Assembly (NCBI GenBank): GCA_020736575.1
Contig: JAGPYM010000004.1
Span: forward strand, 2,666,001-2,730,000
Direction: 5' to 3'
Source of the DNA: Thelonectria olida
Lineage: Eukaryota > Ascomycota > Sordariomycetes > Hypocreales > Nectriaceae
DNA: 64,000 nucleotides
Below the pieces are notes generated by a model. It did no database searches. It worked only from the letters and a program-made list of their open reading frames with translations, and had not been told where the DNA came from. The translations under genes were made by a program, and so were the position numbers. Positions 6,422 to 22,470 of the stretch are shown here, piece after piece (position 1 is the first letter of the stretch; each line of letters begins with the position of its first letter).

Positions 6422-8184
6422 CTTTGACAAGACAAGGAAGTTGATCTCTCTCAATCTGAGACTCAGTGTCTTTGGCTCTGGCTTGAGATGGTCAAGGCTG
6501 GATGGGACAAGGCATCAGCAGAACGGGATCCGAGCAACAACTTATAATGCCTGAACGCCGGAAGAAGCATCTTGTCCTACAACCGCAGCGTGTGAGATTC
6601 TGACAGATTCGCAGCAAAAAGCCAAGACGAGTCTCCGAGACTGTCATCTGTGGGTTCCATGAACCACCGGCCAGCCTCCGCCGGTGGAAGGTGTGTGAGA
6701 AGAAAGGACGAGAGGTCTTCTAAGACGCACACCCTCCGCCGTTTAAAGTGGTGGGGAAGCCGAAATGACGTGCAGAACTCTCTTTGACAGCCATGCTTTG
6801 TGATTGGGTCTTTCACGTGGGAGAACCCCCCGTCGTGCTGTCCAAATGTGAACCCGGTTGTGCGTGGTAGCTAGATATATGCTGTCAGCGTGGAGAAGCG
6901 GCCTGAATGTGCTCCCCGACGGACTTAACTGCCAGGCCGAGAGGTTCGGCCGGACGAATCAGCTTCGACAGAAAGACTGTTCGTCTTCATTTCTGCCAGT
7001 CCGTGTATCCCCAGTTCTTCAAAAGAACACCTGCCTTTCGTGATTCCTGCAGACGGACGTCGGAGGCCGGAGCGCGAGACGCTTCCCCTCGGTGGGAGAT
7101 GGGAGAGGAAGAACGGCGATGTGATGGAGGCAGTGTGCTCGTCATTGTATCGCCAAGAAACATCGAATGGAAAACCAAATAAAAGGTGGCCTGTGCCACC
7201 TAGAGGCCCCCAAAGTTCGCCGCCTGGGCATCGGAGTGAGGATGAAGATGAGGCTGAGGATGGGTGGCTTATGTGCCCTGGGATGTGCTGGTGCGTCTCG
7301 CCCCTCGGACACCGAAGATATGTGCCCAAATTACTATGCATCAATTCCCGATAGTATAAATTCCTTGATTCCTGGTCTCGGAAAAAACTCCACCGCATTT
7401 CCCTTCGTGATTTCCCCAGTTTAAACTTGTCCTCATTCTGCCATGTTTTGTGCTGCTTCCACCTCGTCCCATCAATGAACCGTCTCTGCCCGTTGACTGT
7501 CCTACCTTCTAGTCCACTTCCTCCCACGACATGTCAATGATCCAAAGTCCCATTGTAGTACGTGTGCTTCTTGGCCTTCTTGGCAATTGCACAGCAAGAG
7601 GTGACATTACCCACATATCCTCACTGCCAACCCAACTACTCCGTCCATTTCTACACGGAGAGTGCTCGGGTGGGGCCGGAGCCGGAGCCGGAGAGCACTG
7701 ACTAAGCCGGCGACTTGCCACCAACCTCCAGTCTCACCTCAAAGATGGATATTTAAGCTCCCTTATCTTACCTGGCCGTACTTCATAAATTGTATCCCTC
7801 ATGAAAGTCGCACGTAACTATTCGAGTCTGAACAAATGGCCGACAAACATGCCGGTATCCCAAATGCTTGAGATGACCCTCTTCATTCATGAGCTAGGTA
7901 GCACGGAGACGGGACCAAGACATGGTCAGACGCGAGCAAAGTAAAGCCAGAGAATCGTCAATTCTAGTCAAACCATGTCTAGTCTCATGTAAGCCCTCCT
8001 AATTTGCCCTTTCTTGCATTGCACGAGCTGTTGGGTGGTGGTGATGTAAACAGATGAGGAACAACGCGAATCGACACCCCTCCAAAAAGATACGCACGAT
8101 TCAACGTCTTACAGAAAATGCACGCCCTCGGTAATTAATAATCATGCTTGTACCCCAAGCATTCCTAGAATATGGCCCCTTAAT
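6422..8184. other. Intergenic region
   Basis: This is the upstream region of the DHA2 transporter and downstream of the gene ending at 8185. A 200-codon open frame on the - strand (6925-7527) has no recognisable domain and is overlapped by comparable frames on the other strand, so I do not call it. A short GGAGCC triplet run occurs near 7675. Confidence 0.5.
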
Positions 8185-12194: not shown

Positions 12195-15100
12195 ATGCCC
12201 GAGACCGCGTCGCCCGACAACGTGCTGTCCAGTTCGAACAACGATGTCCAAATTTTCGAAGATGACGCGATGTTGTCGCGCTCGGATGGCAATGGCGCGT
12301 TGAATGGAATCAAAAACGGTGTCGACGTGCCCCATGAGGCCGACCAAGAGACCACGCCAAAAACGAACGGCCATCTCCATGATTCCTTGAACGGCCATGC
12401 CCAAGACGACGAACGACCAGCGAAGCGACGTCGAACTCAAGACGCGACCCCTCCTCCTACCTCTCCCTCCAAGAAACCCAAGCCTGTGTCACCACCATGG
12501 AAGAAGATCGAGGCCGATGGCCCTACCAGCTTCACAGAGAACGGCCGGCGCAAATCCGGCCGCATCAACACTCTCCCATTAGAGCTTCAGCCCCCAGGCG
12601 CGACTCGCAGGACCAGACGCTCTCGAGGTGCCAGCTTGGCCACGCCAATAAAACCTGAACCTCAGCTCAATGGACACTCCAAGAAGACGCCACATGGCTC
12701 TCACAAGGCCACTCCCGCACCCAAATTCGCGCCCAAATCTACCCCTGCGAAACCCACCTCAACACCAACTCAGAAAGCCGCATCCAAGAAACCTGTCACG
12801 GAAACTCGAACTTCCTCCCGATCCACCCGCCGAAAAAGCCCTTCCCCTCACCCTCAATCGACCCGACACTCCACCCGCTCTCGACGATCGACACGACTTA
12901 GCGATACGGCTGATATCAAGAATGAGACACCTAAAGACACCAACAACGAGCCCGCAATCCGATCACCACGGCGGATCAAACTTAGGGTCGGCCGATCTGG
13001 TGATATCCCCCTCGTTCATCCGGATCAGGCTCCCAAGAGGCCCAAGATTGGGACAAGCTTTGAGGATTTCTGGGCTCGTGCGGGTGATATTCCCGTTGAA
13101 GAGGGAGGTCTACTAGCATCTGAAGATGGACCCCCTTACACCGACGAGATGGCACAAAAGGATGCCCAGACAATCCTCCGAATTGAAGAGGAGGTTGAAT
13201 CTGGCGGCCTTCTCTCCCAAGAGAGATGCTCCATTTTTCTGCCCGAACCGGAAGAGGAACCTCCGCGACAATGGGCTCGCCAGGATCACATGATGAAAGC
13301 TATGGTTAACTTCCGGAGGCTCATGCTGGCAGAGCAGCAACGGCATCGGTCTACCGCCAAGAAGCTTGCTGAAGCTTGCCGTGATGAATGGTTCCGACGA
13401 CAGCCAAAGTCGGCCGAACAGATAGAGGCCGAGGCACGGGAAATGTGGTTGGCTCGGTATCGAACAGTCATGAGAACCGTGGTTGGCACCTGGGAGAATG
13501 TCCGATTGGAAGTCAATCGCCGACGCTTGGAGGAGTGGGAACAGGAGGAGCAAAAGAGAGTGAAGGCAGCTCTCAACGAGGCCGTTCATCTCTCTGAACA
13601 GAAGCTCCAGGCTCGTCGTGCAGGTTTGGACTCCGAACAGCTCTCGGATGAGGACGATGGGTTTGACGATCTGACGGACGATGCGAGTCTCTCTGACCTT
13701 GATGACGATCTGGATCTTGCTTCCAACGAGGATGATGGAGATGAAGCGGATGTTGACGAGCAAGACAGTGACAACATGTCGTCTGACGAGGACGAGGTCG
13801 ACGAAGATGATGGCCAAGTGGATGCGGTGGATGAGAACCTGACCCAAGACCAGCTTCGAGCCAAGTATGCGGACATTCCAGAGCTGGAAAAAAATCTAGT
13901 TGATATCGAAACACCGGCGGATACCCCGGCCGACACGTTAGCCACCGGACCGAGTCGAGAAGATACTGAAGCGGTCGATATCACTGCCACCGAAGGCGCG
14001 GAGACTAGCGACGAGTCTATTGACATGGATGATGATATGGGATCAAGCAACATGGATAGCGACGAAGACGCGGCCTCTGGAGATGAAGAAGAATCCGAGG
14101 AAGAGTCAGATGACGACGACGCCGCCGCGGGTGGCTTGCTGGGCTTATTCTTCGGAAAATCTGAACTCAAACAGATGAACGACGAAGCGGCTGCACCCAC
14201 ACCCGTATCAAACGAAGATGTTCAGATGCGCGATGCCGATGCAGAGGATACCTTGGCCGCCAAAGTCACCGATCCCGCTAGTGAAGACGACGAAGTCTCG
14301 CTTGTTCAACATCCAGACGCAACAAAAGACGAGTCCATTCAAAACGGCCACCTTAGCCCTAAGGAGGTGAAAGAGGAGTCCCCATCCATCCAACAACCCT
14401 CAGCTCCATTTACTAAGGAAAAGGATTCTGCTGTTGTGAAGTCAGCCGATGGAATTGCCCTGGTGGAAGTCAATGGCGGACCTCCTCCAGCCAAGCCGGC
14501 CGACGACTCGAGTATTGCGCCAAGTGAAGAGGCCATTGACCCCGGAACAAATGGTCATCCTACCTCACCTAAGCTAGTCAATGGAGTGGCGCCGAATTCA
14601 GCGGTCCCCGCGCCAGAAGTCGAAACCGAGAAGCTTGCCTCAGGTCACCTAGTCAATGGACATGGACCTGCAACGAACTCAGAAACCCGTATTCAAGACG
14701 ATGATGTTGTCATGACTGGTGTTGATGAGCGACCTAACAACATCATCCAAGACGAAGTTTCAGCTCCAGAAGCATCCGAGCAACCGCAAATGGCAGAGAC
14801 GGACCCAGTCACCAACCCGCCGAGCTCAAACAACAGTCTCTCACCACCTCCGACTTCAGAGACCAGACCCTCCGAATTCGATACTACATCTGATATCGGG
14901 ATGGTTCTTGACAAACCTCAACCTGCCCGATCCACATCGCCACAATCTTCCAGGCACAAGATCGAAGTACCATTCCTTCTTCGTGGCACTTTGAGAGAAT
15001 ATCAGCGTGACGGACTCGACTGGTTGGCGGGGCTATACGCCAACAGCACAAACGGTATCCTTGCGGACGAAATGGGTCTCGGCAAGACCATCCAGACAAT

Positions 15101-17630
15101 TGCTTTGCTGGCGCACTTGGCCTGCCAACACGAAGTTTGGGGACCACACTTGGTCATTGTCCCCACAAGTGTCATGCTGAACTGGGAGATGGAGTTCAAG
15201 AAATGGTGCCCTGGCTTCAAGATCTTGTCATACTATGGCTCCCAAGAGGAGCGGAAGCGAAAACGACAAGGCTGGAATAACGACGACGTATGGAATGTTT
15301 GCATCACGTCCTACCAACTGGTTCTTCAAGATCAGCAGGTGTTCAAACGGAGACGCTGGCACTACATGATTTTAGATGAGGCACACAACATCAAGAATTT
15401 CAAGTCTCAGCGGTGGCAGACTCTCCTTGGCTTCAACACACACTCGCGACTTTTGCTCACCGGAACACCTCTCCAGAACAATCTCACTGAGCTCTGGTCG
15501 CTACTGTTCTTCCTGATGCCCGCGGAGAATGGTGTGGGCGGCTTTGCCGACCTGCAAGAGTTCCATGATTGGTTCCACAAACCCGAAACTCAGATCCTTG
15601 AGAGCGGTCGAGAACAGATGGACGATGAGGCTCGCGCTATCATTTCCAAACTTCATAAAGTATTACGGCCATACTTGTTGCGGCGACTGAAGTCCGAAGT
15701 CGAGAAACAGATGCCAGGCAAGTACGAGCACGTTGAGTTCTGCCGGCTCTCAAAACGTCAACGTGAATTGTATGATGGATTCTTGTCCCGAACAGACACA
15801 AAGGCCACCCTAGCGTCCGGGAATTATATGTCCATCATCAATTGTCTGATGCAGCTACGAAAGGTCTGCAACCACCCAGACTTGTTTGTTGATCGACCCA
15901 TCATGACGTCGTTCCGAATGGCCAAGTCTGTGGTGGCAGAATTCGACATGACGGAACTTAAGGTCAGGAAACTCATTGCCGACAAGCCCATGAGCATCGT
16001 TGATCTGGGATTCCTCAATCTCATTCCGACAAAATACGAGCACCTATCCACAGCGAAAACGGATCGGATTTCCCAACTGGGCTCACACAGAGCACTGATG
16101 GACCTTAGAGAGAGGCAGCGGGCTCGAGCCCAACGTGCTTATATGAAGCTAGACCCGGCTACTGTGGAATCGAATATTGCCTATCTTGAAAGTGCTTCAC
16201 GCTGGGGACGCTTTGAAGAGCTGCAGCATTGCGTCTATCTCAACGCTCTTCGTCGTCAGCAGAGGCCGATCTACGGCAAGAACCTTGTCGAGCTTCTCAC
16301 CATTGGCACTGACAAGCGGCCATTCAAACCACGGCCAAAGGTACCCCGACAAGTCATGGCTTGGTTTGAAGAGGATTCCCCCATCATTCAATCCATGATC
16401 TCCACCATCGACCAACGCGCCGATAGTTACAAAACTACCATCGAGAAGTTTTCATGTGTTACTCCGGCAGTCGTTACCCGTGATTTGGATCAGGTCGTTC
16501 TCGGTCGTGCAGGAGTGCAGGCGTTTACTAACGAAGATCTCAAATTGTCGGCGCCCGTCCGCTGGGCGCCATTCCTACCGAAGGAGGCCCCTATTGATCC
16601 GTGGCATGAAGCTCGAATGAGACTGAGTATCCAATTTCCTGACAAGCGCCTTTTGCAATACGACTGCGGAAAACTCCAGGCTCTCGACAAACTACTACGA
16701 AAGCTCCAGGCAGGTGGTCATCGTGCCCTAATCTTCACGCAGATGACCAAGGTCTTGGACGTGCTTGAGCGTTTCCTCAACATTCACGGACACAAATATT
16801 TGCGCTTAGATGGTGCCACCAAGGTCGAACAGCGGCAGATCCTCACTGACCGTTTCAACAATGACACTCGAATCCTGTGCTTCATCTTGTCGACGCGATC
16901 CGGTGGTCTTGGTATCAACCTCACCGGCGCCGACACGGTCATCTTCTACGATCAGGACTGGAACCCCGCCATGGACAAGCAGTGTCAGGACCGATGTCAT
17001 CGTATTGGACAGACTCGAGATGTGCACATTTACCGCCTCATTAGTGAACACACCATTGAAGCCAACATTCTCCGGAAAGCATCCCAGAAGCAGATGTTGG
17101 ATGACGTTGTGATTCAGGAGGGCGAATTCACCACAGATCATTTCAATAAGGTTTCTGTCCAGGATGTCTTGGTTGATAAGCTCGACTCTACGAGCCAGGG
17201 AGTCGACGCCGCAGATGCCGCTTTGGATCGAGTCCTCGGTGGTTCCAGTAGCAATACTGATCAGCGAAAGGTTGGTCGCGTCCTGGAACAGGCCGAAGAC
17301 CGCGAGGACGTAGCTGCGGCGCGTGTGGCAGAAAAGGAGATCCAAGCCGATGAGGCTGATTTTACAGAGAGGCCAAGCAACCTTGCCTCCGGTGCCTCGA
17401 CGACACGACAAGGAACGCCGGCCAGCAAGTCGGTGCTCGACGGGGGCCTAGATGATGCCGACCTTCAAGAAGAACAAGTGGTCGAGCTCAACGCATGGGG
17501 CGATCGGATGCACAACATTGACGATTACATGCTGCGAATCATGGCGGAACAGCTTAAGGGAACGAAGTTGGAGTTGCCTAAGGACAAGAAAAAGGGGAAG
17601 AAGAAAGGAAAGGACACACGCAAGAGATGA
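12195..17630 (+). CDS. swr1: SWR1 chromatin-remodelling ATPase (H2A.Z exchange)
   Basis: This single-exon gene encodes 1811 residues from the ATG at 12195; the frame stays open upstream to 12072, but the later ATG opens the low-complexity N-terminus expected of Swr1. Swr1 is the catalytic subunit of the SWR complex, which swaps H2A-H2B for H2A.Z-H2B in nucleosomes. Order of parts: a Ser/Pro/Lys-rich N-terminus; an HSA helix around residues 355-420 (PPRQWARQDHMMKAM...ACRDEWFRRQP); long acidic tracts (~480-650) resembling the histone-binding region; the SNF2 ATPase with DEMGLGKT near 958 and DEAH near 1060; a split insert; then the helicase C lobe near 1495-1635 with FILSTRSGGLGINL and DRCHRIGQTRDVHIYRL. 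The split ATPase with long insert separates Swr1/Ino80 from other SNF2 proteins, and the HSA plus acidic tract favours Swr1. A Lys-rich tail ends the protein. Confidence 0.95.
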   Translation: MPETASPDNVLSSSNNDVQIFEDDAMLSRSDGNGALNGIKNGVDVPHEADQETTPKTNGHLHDSLNGHAQDDERPAKRRRTQDATPPPTSPSKKPKPVSPPWKKIEADGPTSFTENGRRKSGRINTLPLELQPPGATRRTRRSRGASLATPIKPEPQLNGHSKKTPHGSHKATPAPKFAPKSTPAKPTSTPTQKAASKKPVTETRTSSRSTRRKSPSPHPQSTRHSTRSRRSTRLSDTADIKNETPKDTNNEPAIRSPRRIKLRVGRSGDIPLVHPDQAPKRPKIGTSFEDFWARAGDIPVEEGGLLASEDGPPYTDEMAQKDAQTILRIEEEVESGGLLSQERCSIFLPEPEEEPPRQWARQDHMMKAMVNFRRLMLAEQQRHRSTAKKLAEACRDEWFRRQPKSAEQIEAEAREMWLARYRTVMRTVVGTWENVRLEVNRRRLEEWEQEEQKRVKAALNEAVHLSEQKLQARRAGLDSEQLSDEDDGFDDLTDDASLSDLDDDLDLASNEDDGDEADVDEQDSDNMSSDEDEVDEDDGQVDAVDENLTQDQLRAKYADIPELEKNLVDIETPADTPADTLATGPSREDTEAVDITATEGAETSDESIDMDDDMGSSNMDSDEDAASGDEEESEEESDDDDAAAGGLLGLFFGKSELKQMNDEAAAPTPVSNEDVQMRDADAEDTLAAKVTDPASEDDEVSLVQHPDATKDESIQNGHLSPKEVKEESPSIQQPSAPFTKEKDSAVVKSADGIALVEVNGGPPPAKPADDSSIAPSEEAIDPGTNGHPTSPKLVNGVAPNSAVPAPEVETEKLASGHLVNGHGPATNSETRIQDDDVVMTGVDERPNNIIQDEVSAPEASEQPQMAETDPVTNPPSSNNSLSPPPTSETRPSEFDTTSDIGMVLDKPQPARSTSPQSSRHKIEVPFLLRGTLREYQRDGLDWLAGLYANSTNGILADEMGLGKTIQTIALLAHLACQHEVWGPHLVIVPTSVMLNWEMEFKKWCPGFKILSYYGSQEERKRKRQGWNNDDVWNVCITSYQLVLQDQQVFKRRRWHYMILDEAHNIKNFKSQRWQTLLGFNTHSRLLLTGTPLQNNLTELWSLLFFLMPAENGVGGFADLQEFHDWFHKPETQILESGREQMDDEARAIISKLHKVLRPYLLRRLKSEVEKQMPGKYEHVEFCRLSKRQRELYDGFLSRTDTKATLASGNYMSIINCLMQLRKVCNHPDLFVDRPIMTSFRMAKSVVAEFDMTELKVRKLIADKPMSIVDLGFLNLIPTKYEHLSTAKTDRISQLGSHRALMDLRERQRARAQRAYMKLDPATVESNIAYLESASRWGRFEELQHCVYLNALRRQQRPIYGKNLVELLTIGTDKRPFKPRPKVPRQVMAWFEEDSPIIQSMISTIDQRADSYKTTIEKFSCVTPAVVTRDLDQVVLGRAGVQAFTNEDLKLSAPVRWAPFLPKEAPIDPWHEARMRLSIQFPDKRLLQYDCGKLQALDKLLRKLQAGGHRALIFTQMTKVLDVLERFLNIHGHKYLRLDGATKVEQRQILTDRFNNDTRILCFILSTRSGGLGINLTGADTVIFYDQDWNPAMDKQCQDRCHRIGQTRDVHIYRLISEHTIEANILRKASQKQMLDDVVIQEGEFTTDHFNKVSVQDVLVDKLDSTSQGVDAADAALDRVLGGSSSNTDQRKVGRVLEQAEDREDVAAARVAEKEIQADEADFTERPSNLASGASTTRQGTPASKSVLDGGLDDADLQEEQVVELNAWGDRMHNIDDYMLRIMAEQLKGTKLELPKDKKKGKKKGKDTRKR

Positions 17631-18204: not shown

Positions 18205-19011
18205 TTATTCGTAAGCCTCGACGATGCTGCGAGCAACAGTTCGCATGTTGTTGAGATCACGGCGGGCCTTCCAGCAAGACTGGCCAATTCGCTCACACCA
18301 GGGCTCGGGGTGGGCATCGCGCTTCTCCTTCCAGCAGGACTGGCCGATACGCTCGCACCACGGCTGAGCCTCGCGCTTGGAGAAGAAGTCGGGGTCGAAG
18401 GCAGCGTCGCGCTCCACGTTGTCGGCGTCACGGCCAACGACATCGAGAACCGCCTCGGCCGCGCGCTTGGCCTTCCAGCACGACTGCCCGATGCGCTCGC
18501 ACCAGCGCTTGTCCTTAGTCACGGCCTGCTTGTCGGCCTCGGCGTCGCGCTTCCAGCAGGACTGGCCGATGCGCTCGCACCACGGGTTGGGTAGGGCGTC
18601 GCGCTTCTCCTTCTCGTCCGAGTCGGGGTGGAACTGCGAGGCCAGCTCGAGGGCCTTGTAGTACTCCTCGGGGGAGTGTTGGGCGAGGGCGACGTGGCCG
18701 GCGAGCTCGTTGAGGGAGCGCTTGGCGGCAAAGGCGGCGCCGCCGGCGAGGTTGGACAGGTCGGCCTCGGCATCGCGGGCGGACAGGCCGCCGGAGGACT
18801 GAATGGCCTCATGGAAGGCCTCGGCGGCGCGCTTGACCTTCCAGCAGGACTGGCCGATGCGCTCGCACCAGGGCTCGGCGTCGGGGGCGGCGTCGCGCTT
18901 CTCCTTCCAGCAGGACTGGCCGATGCGCTCACACCAGGGCTCGGCATCAGCAGCGGGAGCGGCGAGGACGTTGGATGCCAGGATGGCAACGGTGGCAAGA
19001 GTGAACTTCAT
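18205..19011 (-). CDS. ppg1: Alpha-type mating pheromone precursor, six peptide copies
   Basis: This intronless 268-residue precursor is secreted and cut into peptide pheromone for the Ste2-type receptor of the opposite mating type. A signal peptide (MKFTLATVAILASNVLAAPA) is followed by six identical copies of WCERIGQSCW at residues 26-35, 48-57, 144-153, 170-179, 218-227 and 238-247. Each copy is followed by Lys and then a dibasic KR or RR site for Kex2. Copies are preceded by acidic-Ala/Pro dipeptides (DAEP, ALPNP, EAQP, HPEP) fitting Ste13-type dipeptidyl aminopeptidase trimming, except copy 4, which directly follows KDKR. Two Cys flanked by Trp (WCxxxxGQxCW) is the Sordariomycete alpha-factor pattern; Neurospora's peptide shares the GQSCW end. 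The spacer at residues 62-140 has Kex2-like sites but no pheromone copy. The upstream region is rich in a repeated motif. Confidence 0.95.
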   Translation of the reverse strand: MKFTLATVAILASNVLAAPAADAEPWCERIGQSCWKEKRDAAPDAEPWCERIGQSCWKVKRAAEAFHEAIQSSGGLSARDAEADLSNLAGGAAFAAKRSLNELAGHVALAQHSPEEYYKALELASQFHPDSDEKEKRDALPNPWCERIGQSCWKRDAEADKQAVTKDKRWCERIGQSCWKAKRAAEAVLDVVGRDADNVERDAAFDPDFFSKREAQPWCERIGQSCWKEKRDAHPEPWCERIGQSCWKARRDLNNMRTVARSIVEAYE

Positions 19012-19167
19012 GATGAAGGGTGAGTATCCTCAGAGGGATGGTTTGAAAGTAAGGGGGAAGGGGTTCTGTCGAGTGAGGGAGGTGATGAGGTTGTTGATGT
19101 TGTCCTTGAGATGTTGGAACAAGCCTGATGAGAAAAGACTGGACTTGAAGGGGGATTAGGAGCCAGA

Positions 19168-19175
19168 TTTATAAA
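19168..19175 (-). promoter_or_regulatory. Candidate TATA box of the pheromone gene
   Basis: The self-complementary octamer TTTATAAA lies about 160 bp upstream of the ATG, between the start codon and the YTATTGA cluster. The position is compatible with a TATA element and a leader of roughly 100-130 nt; no transcript start can be read directly. Confidence 0.5.
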
Positions 19176-19239
19176 CTTCATGGCGAACAGATATTGACGG
19201 GGAGGTGCTGTGGTGGTTGTGTGGTCGAGCGGTGTTCAG

Positions 19240-19276
19240 CTTATTGAGTCTATTGATGCAAGTCCGACTCAATAAG
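19240..19276. repeat. 11-bp perfect inverted repeat in the pheromone promoter
   Basis: CTTATTGAGTC at 19240-19250 is matched by its exact reverse complement GACTCAATAAG at 19266-19276, separated by 15 bp. A third direct motif, CTATTGAT, overlaps the spacer. The symmetry suggests a dimeric or paired protein binding site rather than a hairpin with a role in RNA. Confidence 0.7.
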
Positions 19277-20247
19277 GGGTGCATTAGCCCGCAACGCAAC
19301 AAACAAATCCTGGCCACAGAGAGAGCTCACGAGATGGACCACTCAAGAGAGAACCTGGTATGAGATGAAAGAGGCAATGTAGAAGAAGATCAGTCGAGGT
19401 GGCAACGAGTGTTTTGGGAGGACTAAAGGGTTGAAAGGCTGCTGGCCGTTGTTCGCCGTGATTGGACGTGCGGGCTTATTGATTCGGGTGTGTTCCTTGG
19501 ACGACTGTTGTCTCGACATCTATTGATTCGGACTTGGTGACGTTTGGTCCGTTAGTTACGAACTAGAGCTGCTGTCGTTGCCAGTTGAGGCTTGAGATCG
19601 TCCTGGGAGCTTGTCAGACGGGCCGCCGTTAGAACCTAGCTTATTGAGACGGACTTGGCTCAACGGCTTGAGTTTCTGCTTCTATTGACTAGACGAAGAG
19701 GATTTAACGATGCATATACCTGATGTGTTTCAGGCGAAGCATAACGGAGCCTTCCTCCCGGCCCAGTGTGTGTCTCCCCCGTCCCGCACTCTGTCCAACG
19801 TGAAGCAAACCCGCCGAGGGCCGATTGCAGATTTGTTTGTCCCCGAGTCAAGGCCGATTTCTCGTATTGGGCCTTGAGACCGAGCTCAAAGAAGTTGCCT
19901 GCGTGTATTTTTCTTTATTACCAATGTCGAGGTTGGCAACATCTGGCGGTAACTTGGATTATTGGTACGAAGTTGGTCCATGCCTATTCAAGTCTCATTC
20001 GGCCTATTGAAGCCTGAATAGAGTCAAGGGCGTGGTCGGCCACCGCAACGGCCAACCAAATATGGTAAAAATGGCTCTCATGTGACTATGATTCAAAAAG
20101 AGTGGAAATTTATTTTCAATATTGCTATGTGATGTTCTGTTCAGGCCAAGTCTGTTGCGTGGGGGGCGCCAGCTTCCCTGCCTTGGCCTCCCAACGACAA
20201 ACATACTGACACTGCCATGAAAGTACCAAGTCAATCGACCTATCAGG

Positions 20248-20773: not shown

Positions 20774-22470
20774 TTACTCCTCCTCGGAGATGATAGACTC
20801 GGCGTCGTTATTGTCCACGACGAGGTCGGCGGGAAACTTCATTCCCGGCACCAACTCAGAATTGACCTCCAAATTGGGGCCCTCTCCCATCTCAATGTCT
20901 AGGAACTTCTCCGTGGGCCCCGAATACATGGTACACACGCTTCCAGAATCGTTCATATCCATACTGGAGTCGCCGTCCTGATCCGTGCTAGAACCCTTGT
21001 CAGCTTCCATGCTGGGCGCAATATCCGTATCCATGCCATCCAGGGCTGCGCGTAGGGCACGTTCCAACTCGGCCTGAGATTCAGTGTCCGTCTCTGTATC
21101 TGAATCATATTCTACCTCCGTATCTGAATCGTCGAGGCTTCCTATGTCCATGTCTATGCCGTCAACGTCATTGTCAAACGGCCTCAGGAGGAGGTCCTTG
21201 TTCAAGAGGGTGATTTCTCGTCCGCGGGCATAACCCTCAATTTGGGCTTCGCAGATGTCAGTTTGGTAAAACAGGAAGAGAGAGTCTGACAAGAGTGGCT
21301 CCCAAACGTCTTTTCCAGACTCGGTGACTTCATCGATTTTGGAGAGAAGCTCTGATAGGCGTGCCTTGTAATCTGTTTCATTTAGCAGAGCGATTTCAGA
21401 CACGGCAAACAGCACTTCAGCCCACATTTGGATAACGTCCTGGGAGAAGCTCATTTGCAGATAGCGAAACTCAAAGGTGCTGCTTGAGCCTTCCAAATCC
21501 ATTGCAGTGTCAGCAGACACGCGGTTTCCGTCCCTATCTCTGAGCGACAAGGCCGAGCCGAGTCGCTGACCATCGTTCGTCATGAGCTGAGCAAGCGCCT
21601 GTAGTGAACTGGTGCGCCAGATTCTCTCGAGAGACTCCTTGAAGAAGGATGGGTTCTGGCTGTTCCAGTGCTCCTCCTTGATAGCGTCGAACTCGGGGAA
21701 ATGGAGACGCAGCTGGGCGGCTCCGGTGGGGTCACTGTGTCGAGAGCCAACAGATGGTCCAGTGGCTAGGGCAGAAGATACGTGAATGTGTTCAGATTGA
21801 GGTCTAGTAGCCATGAGGGGGCCGCCAGAGCGCCGAAGAGCGGGCTCTCGAGAAGAAAGGCGAGCGTGGCCATCTTCTTGGCGAACAGGAGCGTCATGCC
21901 ACCGGGGACGCCAATGTGGACGTGCAAGCCACAAGACTCGTCGGCGGTGATATCCGTGTCGATAGACAGTTGGTGAAGGCACTTAATCATTCTCCCTATG
22001 ACGGGCGAGTCGTTCAGCAACTCGTGGCGATCGAAGATGGGCATTGCGAGTTTGACGCCGGGCCAGTTCCTGTCCGTGTTAATCTTAGATCGACCGTCGA
22101 GATACTCATCTTTGATCAGGAACACGCTGTGTGCAAACGTAGTTCCCGGGCGGACCTTGACGTCCTCTAAGAGTTCGGTGGCTGAGATGACTGGCGTCTC
22201 GCACTCGGTGAAGAGGCCGTCGGCCTCGCAGCTTAGGCACTTGTCGTGATTGAGGACGCCGGTGTAAGCGATGGGCAGGTCGGTCAGGGCAGCCAAGTCC
22301 TCAGCGAACTTTCGTCGGGAGAGGAGGCAGTTTTCAGGCGATTCCCACTCCTGTGTGCGAGGTTCATACATGAAGTGCAGCTCGATGCCGATAGTCAGGT
22401 CAGAGGAGAAGAGCATCTTGCCAGTGTTTGTGAAATCCATAAGGGAGCCGGTGCGGATGGATTGCACCAT
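20774..22470 (-). CDS. Amidoligase-fold protein with acidic C-terminal tail
   Basis: Two exons (21782-22470 and 20774-21734) joined by a 47-nt GTATCT...ACACAG intron give 549 residues. The first half matches the fungal putative amidoligase family (COOH-NH2 ligase fold related to glutamine synthetase): an opening strand with metal-site style TIGIELHFMY near residue 27, and the hallmark DESCGLHVHIGVPGG followed by a helix. Family members are thought to form amide bonds between carboxylates and amines of small molecules or peptides using ATP; no substrate is known for the fungal branch. The C-terminal ~170 residues are strongly acidic with Asp/Glu/Ser/Thr repeats (DSDTEVEYDSDTETDTES) and probably disordered. 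No signal peptide or membrane segment is seen. Confidence 0.75.

Follow-up and report, generated by a model that had tools for sequence, protein, structure and literature searches.

In yeast, the alpha-domain factor MATalpha1 marks the alpha-pheromone and a-receptor genes. It works together with Mcm1 (PMC2253631, PMC2999568), and the core of its sites is CAATG (PMC2999568). A Penicillium MAT1-1-1 target, named in an earlier note on the DNA described here, is indeed in print: the tom1 promoter of P. chrysogenum contains CTATTGAG, to which MAT1-1-1 binds (PMC10512297), the motif being that of Becker et al. 2015 as given in PMC10512297 and PMC5905970. Among the P. chrysogenum MAT1-1-1 targets are ppg1, pre1, kex1 and kex2, and a tom1 reporter was not driven by the single verified site and seemed to require the wider set (PMC10512297). 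In Neurospora crassa, the STE3 orthologue pre-1 is mat A-specific, like ccg-4 (PMC11481897). The evidence on MATalpha1 control in Fusarium graminearum, a homothallic species, is mixed. Under sexual induction the GzPPG1 transcript falls to 0.0 in a MAT1-1-1 deletion, but it is equally 0.0 in the MAT1-2 deletion, and GzPRE1 stands at 2.5-fold in the MAT1-1-1 deletion (PMC4559316). Also arguing against MATalpha1 control of pheromone genes are the elevated levels, in vegetative hyphae of a mat1-1-1 mutant, of the pheromone and receptor genes, all four of them (PMC3691137), the assignment of PPG1 to the control of MAT1-2-1 and REL3 (PMC11708053) and, in Podospora, the HMG core ATCAAAG common to both pheromone genes (PMC3730723). 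In two-hybrid assays the F. graminearum MAT1-1-1 protein interacts with Mcm1 (PMC3691137). According to a 2024 study of the same species, CIS-BP offered no motif for MAT1-1-1 (PMC11708053).

The window (the whole 64,000-nucleotide stretch of Thelonectria olida DNA that was analysed) contains an alpha-pheromone precursor gene at 18205..19011 on the minus strand. Its intact open reading frame encodes 268 amino acids with six WCERIGQSCW repeats and begins with what looks like a signal peptide. The best match of the precursor outside this genome, a protein of Mariannaea sp. PMI_226, is 86% identical over the whole length. Among the best 120 of 185 hits, many of the named ones bear the label pheromone precursor or clock-controlled pheromone ccg-4. 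The gene is single-copy, with no second match in the 52.5-Mb genome, and no relative turned up when a viral contig collection was scanned with its protein. At 19168-19173, 162 bp before the ATG and on the strand of the gene (minus), stands a TATAAA word, which we take to be the TATA box; 18 bp separate it from the nearest TATTGA. The promoter also has one copy of TGTTTCA (TGAAACA) at 19726..19732 on the plus strand, presumably a Ste12-type pheromone response word, four CCAAT words (background 2.0 per kb) and two copies of RRCAAACA, the PNA1 word (background 0.19). The next upstream open reading frames, at 20774-22470, lie on the same minus strand, and that at 20774-21814 has no Pfam match. Since the next long upstream frame thus shares the strand of the pheromone gene and has its end at 20774, the simplest reading of the region 19191-20011 is a promoter that serves only the pheromone gene. 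A neighbouring gene at 12195-17630 (plus strand) encodes an SNF2-family remodeller of 1811 residues with a weak HSA-domain match, which we assume to be of the SWR1/INO80 type.

Between 19192 and 20010, on both strands, the promoter carries nine TATTGA words as putative MATalpha1 sites, starting at 19192, 19242, 19251, 19269 (minus strand), 19477, 19521, 19642, 19683 and 20005. The site at 19192 reads ATATTGAC and the other eight YTATTGA, as the earlier note had reported for 19191-20011; three of the nine end in G (TTATTGAG). The earlier estimate of less than one such word by chance agrees with 3000 dinucleotide shuffles of the 821-bp region, which gave a mean of 0.30 and a maximum of 3. An equal density in random genomic DNA, which the earlier note had named as evidence against its reading, was not encountered. 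The comparison comprised 221 tiles of 1 kb from this genome: 160 came from 16 stretches that were hand-picked at round coordinates rather than drawn at random, and 61 from the remainder of the window. Of these tiles, 161 lacked the word, 50 had one copy, nine had two and one had three. The 24 tiles below 50% GC contained at most two copies each.

The genome also allowed the other mating genes to be consulted. A profile search revealed one MAT alpha-box match (PF04769, 126 bits, C96:270411-270836), and the strain therefore carries MAT1-1-1. There is one Ste2 gene and one Ste3 gene, the latter with two exons. Of eleven HMG-box matches, five were read by eye and none of these was a MAT1-2-1 gene; the best match lies outside those five. 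An a-pheromone search with the published h-type motif matched six genomic places, two of which were read. One of these, C133:60236-60376, is a frame ending in three PLGC(N/T)VM repeats, in agreement with the h-type precursors that PMC3068285 describes for Hypocreales, and is the candidate a-pheromone gene; the other, on C13, was rejected, a stop standing immediately before the motif.

In the 1 kb before the start codon, TATTGA occurs nine times in the pheromone gene, five times in Ste3, once in Ste2 and not at all in MAT1-1-1. Several cores in excess are therefore found in the promoters of both alpha-specific genes, with no excess before Ste2 or MAT1-1-1. For Ste3, whose promoter is independent of the choice of motif in the earlier note, 0.30 copies were expected and the shuffle maximum was 3. 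The exact Penicillium octamer CTATTGAG stands at three of the five Ste3 sites (0.03 expected, shuffle maximum 2) and at none of the nine pheromone sites. When the 1159 six-mers occurring in either of the two promoters, pheromone and Ste3, were ranked by log10 joint Poisson probability, TATTGA came first at -15.1. Ranks two to four (-5.8, -5.6 and -5.2) overlap TATTGA, and TATAAA, at -4.7, leads the words that share nothing with it. The proposal that the array is read by MATalpha1 is partly supported: it has gained a motif in print, a MAT1-1-1 gene in the strain and a Ste3 promoter with the same core, and the lack of the exact octamer at the nine pheromone sites makes the fit less than perfect.

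A further candidate is a KEX2-like gene. Pairs of TATTGAG were found at 13 places in the genome compared with 18 for the reversed control, and this lack of an excess counts against the MATalpha1 reading. Five of the 13 were inspected, and those of Ste3 and KEX2 were retained. The remaining three were attributed to chance: the pair on C84 falls within an open reading frame next to an exon of zinc-cluster-like type, that at C79:446273 within an open frame and that on C35 just past one. The KEX2 pair is located upstream of the gene with the only above-threshold P_proprotein match of the genome. Counted from its start at L057:1294, three TATTGAG words stand at -1189, -1093 and -1072, in one orientation and within a span of about 120 bp. 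In these 1293 bp the Poisson probability is 0.0005 for TATTGAG and 0.007 for TATTGA, both uncorrected and for a trio noticed post hoc. Counting against this candidate, the nearest 1 kb contains no TATTGA, and ATTGTT occurs twice in the 1293 bp. The trio supports the MATalpha1 reading but does not decide it.

Based on these observations, we consider it quite probable that the array is a cluster of candidate sites for MATalpha1 (MAT1-1-1), with the core TATTGA/TCAATA, that serves MAT1-1-specific pheromone expression. An origin by chance or composition without function is very improbable. In its favor, TATTGA triples also occur in repeated DNA: when gaps of 0-30 were allowed, TATTGA-TATTGA-TCAATA was found at 28 places compared with 38 for the reversed control, and 25 of the 28 places for this one triple pattern fall into two types of repeated sequence, the array being one of the three unique places. 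Against it are the nine copies observed, three times the shuffle maximum, the low counts in the tiles poor in GC and the independent recurrence of the word before Ste3. The repeated sequences themselves, a 56-bp sequence at 22 places and a 38-bp sequence at three, contain the triples in nearly identical copies and are likely mobile elements.

Another HMG-type regulator, whether FMF1/PaHMG5-like, MAT1-1-3 or MAT1-2-1, might read the array in place of MATalpha1. The alpha domain is related to the HMG box (PMC2999568), such that the words of the two are alike, and the genome has eleven HMG-box matches. In Podospora, PaHMG5 weakly binds sites of pheromone genes in EMSA (PMC3730723), and a MAT1-2-1 site has been placed in PPG1 of F. 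graminearum (PMC11708053). However, neither the pheromone nor the Ste3 promoter contains ATTGTT, the MAT1-2-1 word of F. graminearum (PMC4559316), nor any TCTTTGTY, WWCAAWG or ATTAAT, and a cluster of HMG-box (MAT1-2-1/FMF1) sites is absent from both. The absence of ATTGTT taken by itself is weak evidence, since zero copies in 2 kb have a chance probability of 0.40. Independent binding data exist for a word that fits TATTGA, and that word is the one of MAT1-1-1; control of the array by an HMG-type regulator is accordingly regarded as unlikely. In 1-kb promoters ATTGTT numbers four before Ste2 and two before MAT1-1-1, with a background of 0.46 per kb. The four Ste2 copies have a Poisson probability of 0.0013, for one among 15 words counted, and may be a MAT1-2-1 counterpart of the TATTGA code. 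Two of them (L031, ATG at 6545, minus strand) are 11 bp apart, and the Ste2 promoter also contains three WWCAAWG.

Three of the nine sites belong to a longer element of 18 bp, which the earlier note had described and which was found without mismatch at all three places: CTTATTGAGTCGGACTTG at 19259..19276 (minus strand), TCTATTGATTCGGACTTG at 19519..19536 (plus) and CTTATTGAGACGGACTTG at 19640..19657 (plus). A degenerate copy, CTTATTGATTCGGGTGTG at 19475..19492 (plus), has three mismatches and keeps CGG at 2 nt from the core. The minus-strand copy is part of a perfect 11-bp inverted repeat (19240-19250 and 19266-19276) around CAAGTCCG, of the form TATTGA-TG-CAAGTCCG-AC-TCAATA; at 19251-19274 this octamer stands between two TATTGA, 2 nt from each. 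Across the 52.5 Mb of the genome the 17-mer form has three exact matches, as has a form that specifies 14 bases, all in the array. One mismatch admits 12 places elsewhere, compared with about 16 expected assuming equal bases, and the 3-kb loci of these 12 contain at most four TATTGA each. Up to two mismatches give 322 places compared with 206 for the reversed control. The shorter form TATTGANNCGGAC occurs 18 times in the genome (reversed control 7), three of them in the array. None of the other 15 coincides with the coordinates of MAT1-1-1, Ste2, Ste3, KEX2 or the a-pheromone gene; two of the 15, at C89:2282175 and C101:212291, lie inside stretches that were read, and so does C133:1801683. The idea that the extended element marks other mating genes therefore fails: it has no further exact copy outside the array and TATTGANNCGGAC is absent from those located.

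The extension follows the core at a fixed distance. CGG stands exactly 2 nt after TATTGA at four of the nine array sites and at none of 98 others (Fisher 2.4e-5), the latter taken from the other genomic stretches read, including the five sites of Ste3, and from the rest of the window. When any trinucleotide and eight offsets were allowed, 0.2% of 5000 nine-site background samples equalled the CGG association, which thus looks real. The 16-bp cores of the three composite copies differ solely in the 2-nt spacer, whereas their 60-bp flanks are alike at 14-18 of 60 positions, the level of chance. Cores alike between such flanks indicate either that selection has kept the element or that it was copied as a very short block. 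The CGG at 2 nt (four sites, with the full CGGACTTG at three) probably represents a second contact, whether of MATalpha1 or of a partner protein. At 19140-19147 on the plus strand, in the interval from the TATA word to the pheromone ATG, TGGACTTG matches the octamer of the extension at all but one base, with no adjoining TATTGA.

What CGGACTTG itself contributes can be read in two ways. It could be the site of a partner other than Mcm1, and it is conceivable, if doubtful, that in this lineage MATalpha1 acts on the alpha-pheromone gene through a fixed TATTGA-N2-CGGACTTG composite, joined there by another DNA-binding protein distinct from Mcm1. The arrangement at 19251-19274 would then suggest a single partner that places two MATalpha1 molecules, with a TATTGA on both sides at the equal spacing of 2 nt. 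In the alternative reading, to which we give an even chance, CGGACTTG has no partner and is the trace of very-short-block copying or of a wider MATalpha1 footprint. Support for this alternative comes from the near identity of the three cores, from the restriction of the CGG spacing to the array among the sites read, Ste3 lacking it, from the occurrence of the octamer CGGACTTG alone at eight places in the other 200 kb read (L029-L048) and from the lack of TATTGANNCGGAC at the other located mating genes. Arguing against it is the fourth site, which keeps CGG at 2 nt with a differing sequence beyond. A larger recent duplication would give neither flanks at chance level nor copies in both orientations. 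Literature searches on CGGACTTG, MATalpha1 sites and Mariannaea mating genes found no published counterpart of the extension; the TATTGA in PMC13152902 was rejected, being merely part of a PCR primer.

In its known part the locus is an array of putative MATalpha1 sites, and the fixed-spacing TATTGA-N2-CGGACTTG composite is its variant part. As in P. chrysogenum, the sites have the core TATTGA, several to a promoter, with the Penicillium octamer itself before Ste3, and the putative targets are the genes of the alpha-pheromone, the Ste3-type receptor and possibly KEX2. The many-site array fits the Penicillium system, where the verified site alone was insufficient and a wider set seemed to be required. 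Thelonectria olida differs from P. chrysogenum in belonging to another fungal class, in lacking CTATTGAG at the pheromone gene and in having three sites with CGGACTTG at 2 nt. The marked set also resembles the alpha-specific genes of yeast, since TATTGA marks Ste3 and possibly KEX2 in addition to the pheromone gene. A possible second half-site at fixed spacing recalls the MATalpha1-Mcm1 composite, with CAATA here in place of the yeast CAATG (PMC2999568). The extension does not have the CArG form of the yeast partner site, however: the strict form CCWWWWWWGG, and with it an Mcm1 box so defined, is absent from the pheromone and Ste3 promoters, and the relaxed form CCNNWWNNGG occurs once in each (background 0.83 per kb). 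With the MAT1-2-1/FMF1 sites of F. graminearum the locus would share the control of pheromone and receptor genes by mating type within Hypocreales, but ATTGTT and TCTTTGTY, absent from the array and from Ste3, set it apart, ATTGTT being found four times before Ste2.

MAT1-1-1 most likely binds the array, activates transcription from it and confers specificity for the mating type. In the proposed model, MAT1-1-1 in MAT1-1 strains would occupy several of the sites, which lie a short way upstream of the TATA box, and the pheromone gene would be activated, whereas in MAT1-2 strains the factor would be absent and the gene off or low. Ste3, and possibly KEX2, would be activated together with the pheromone gene. 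In one hypocrealean genome, TATTGA marks the genes of the alpha-pheromone and the a-receptor, and possibly KEX2 as well, and ATTGTT marks the alpha-receptor gene, which gives cheap and concrete probes for the mating-type code in promoters of filamentous ascomycetes. CGGACTTG is a candidate partner site comparable with the Mcm1 box of yeast. If the composite does recruit a second protein, pheromone output could answer a signal that the receptor gene ignores.
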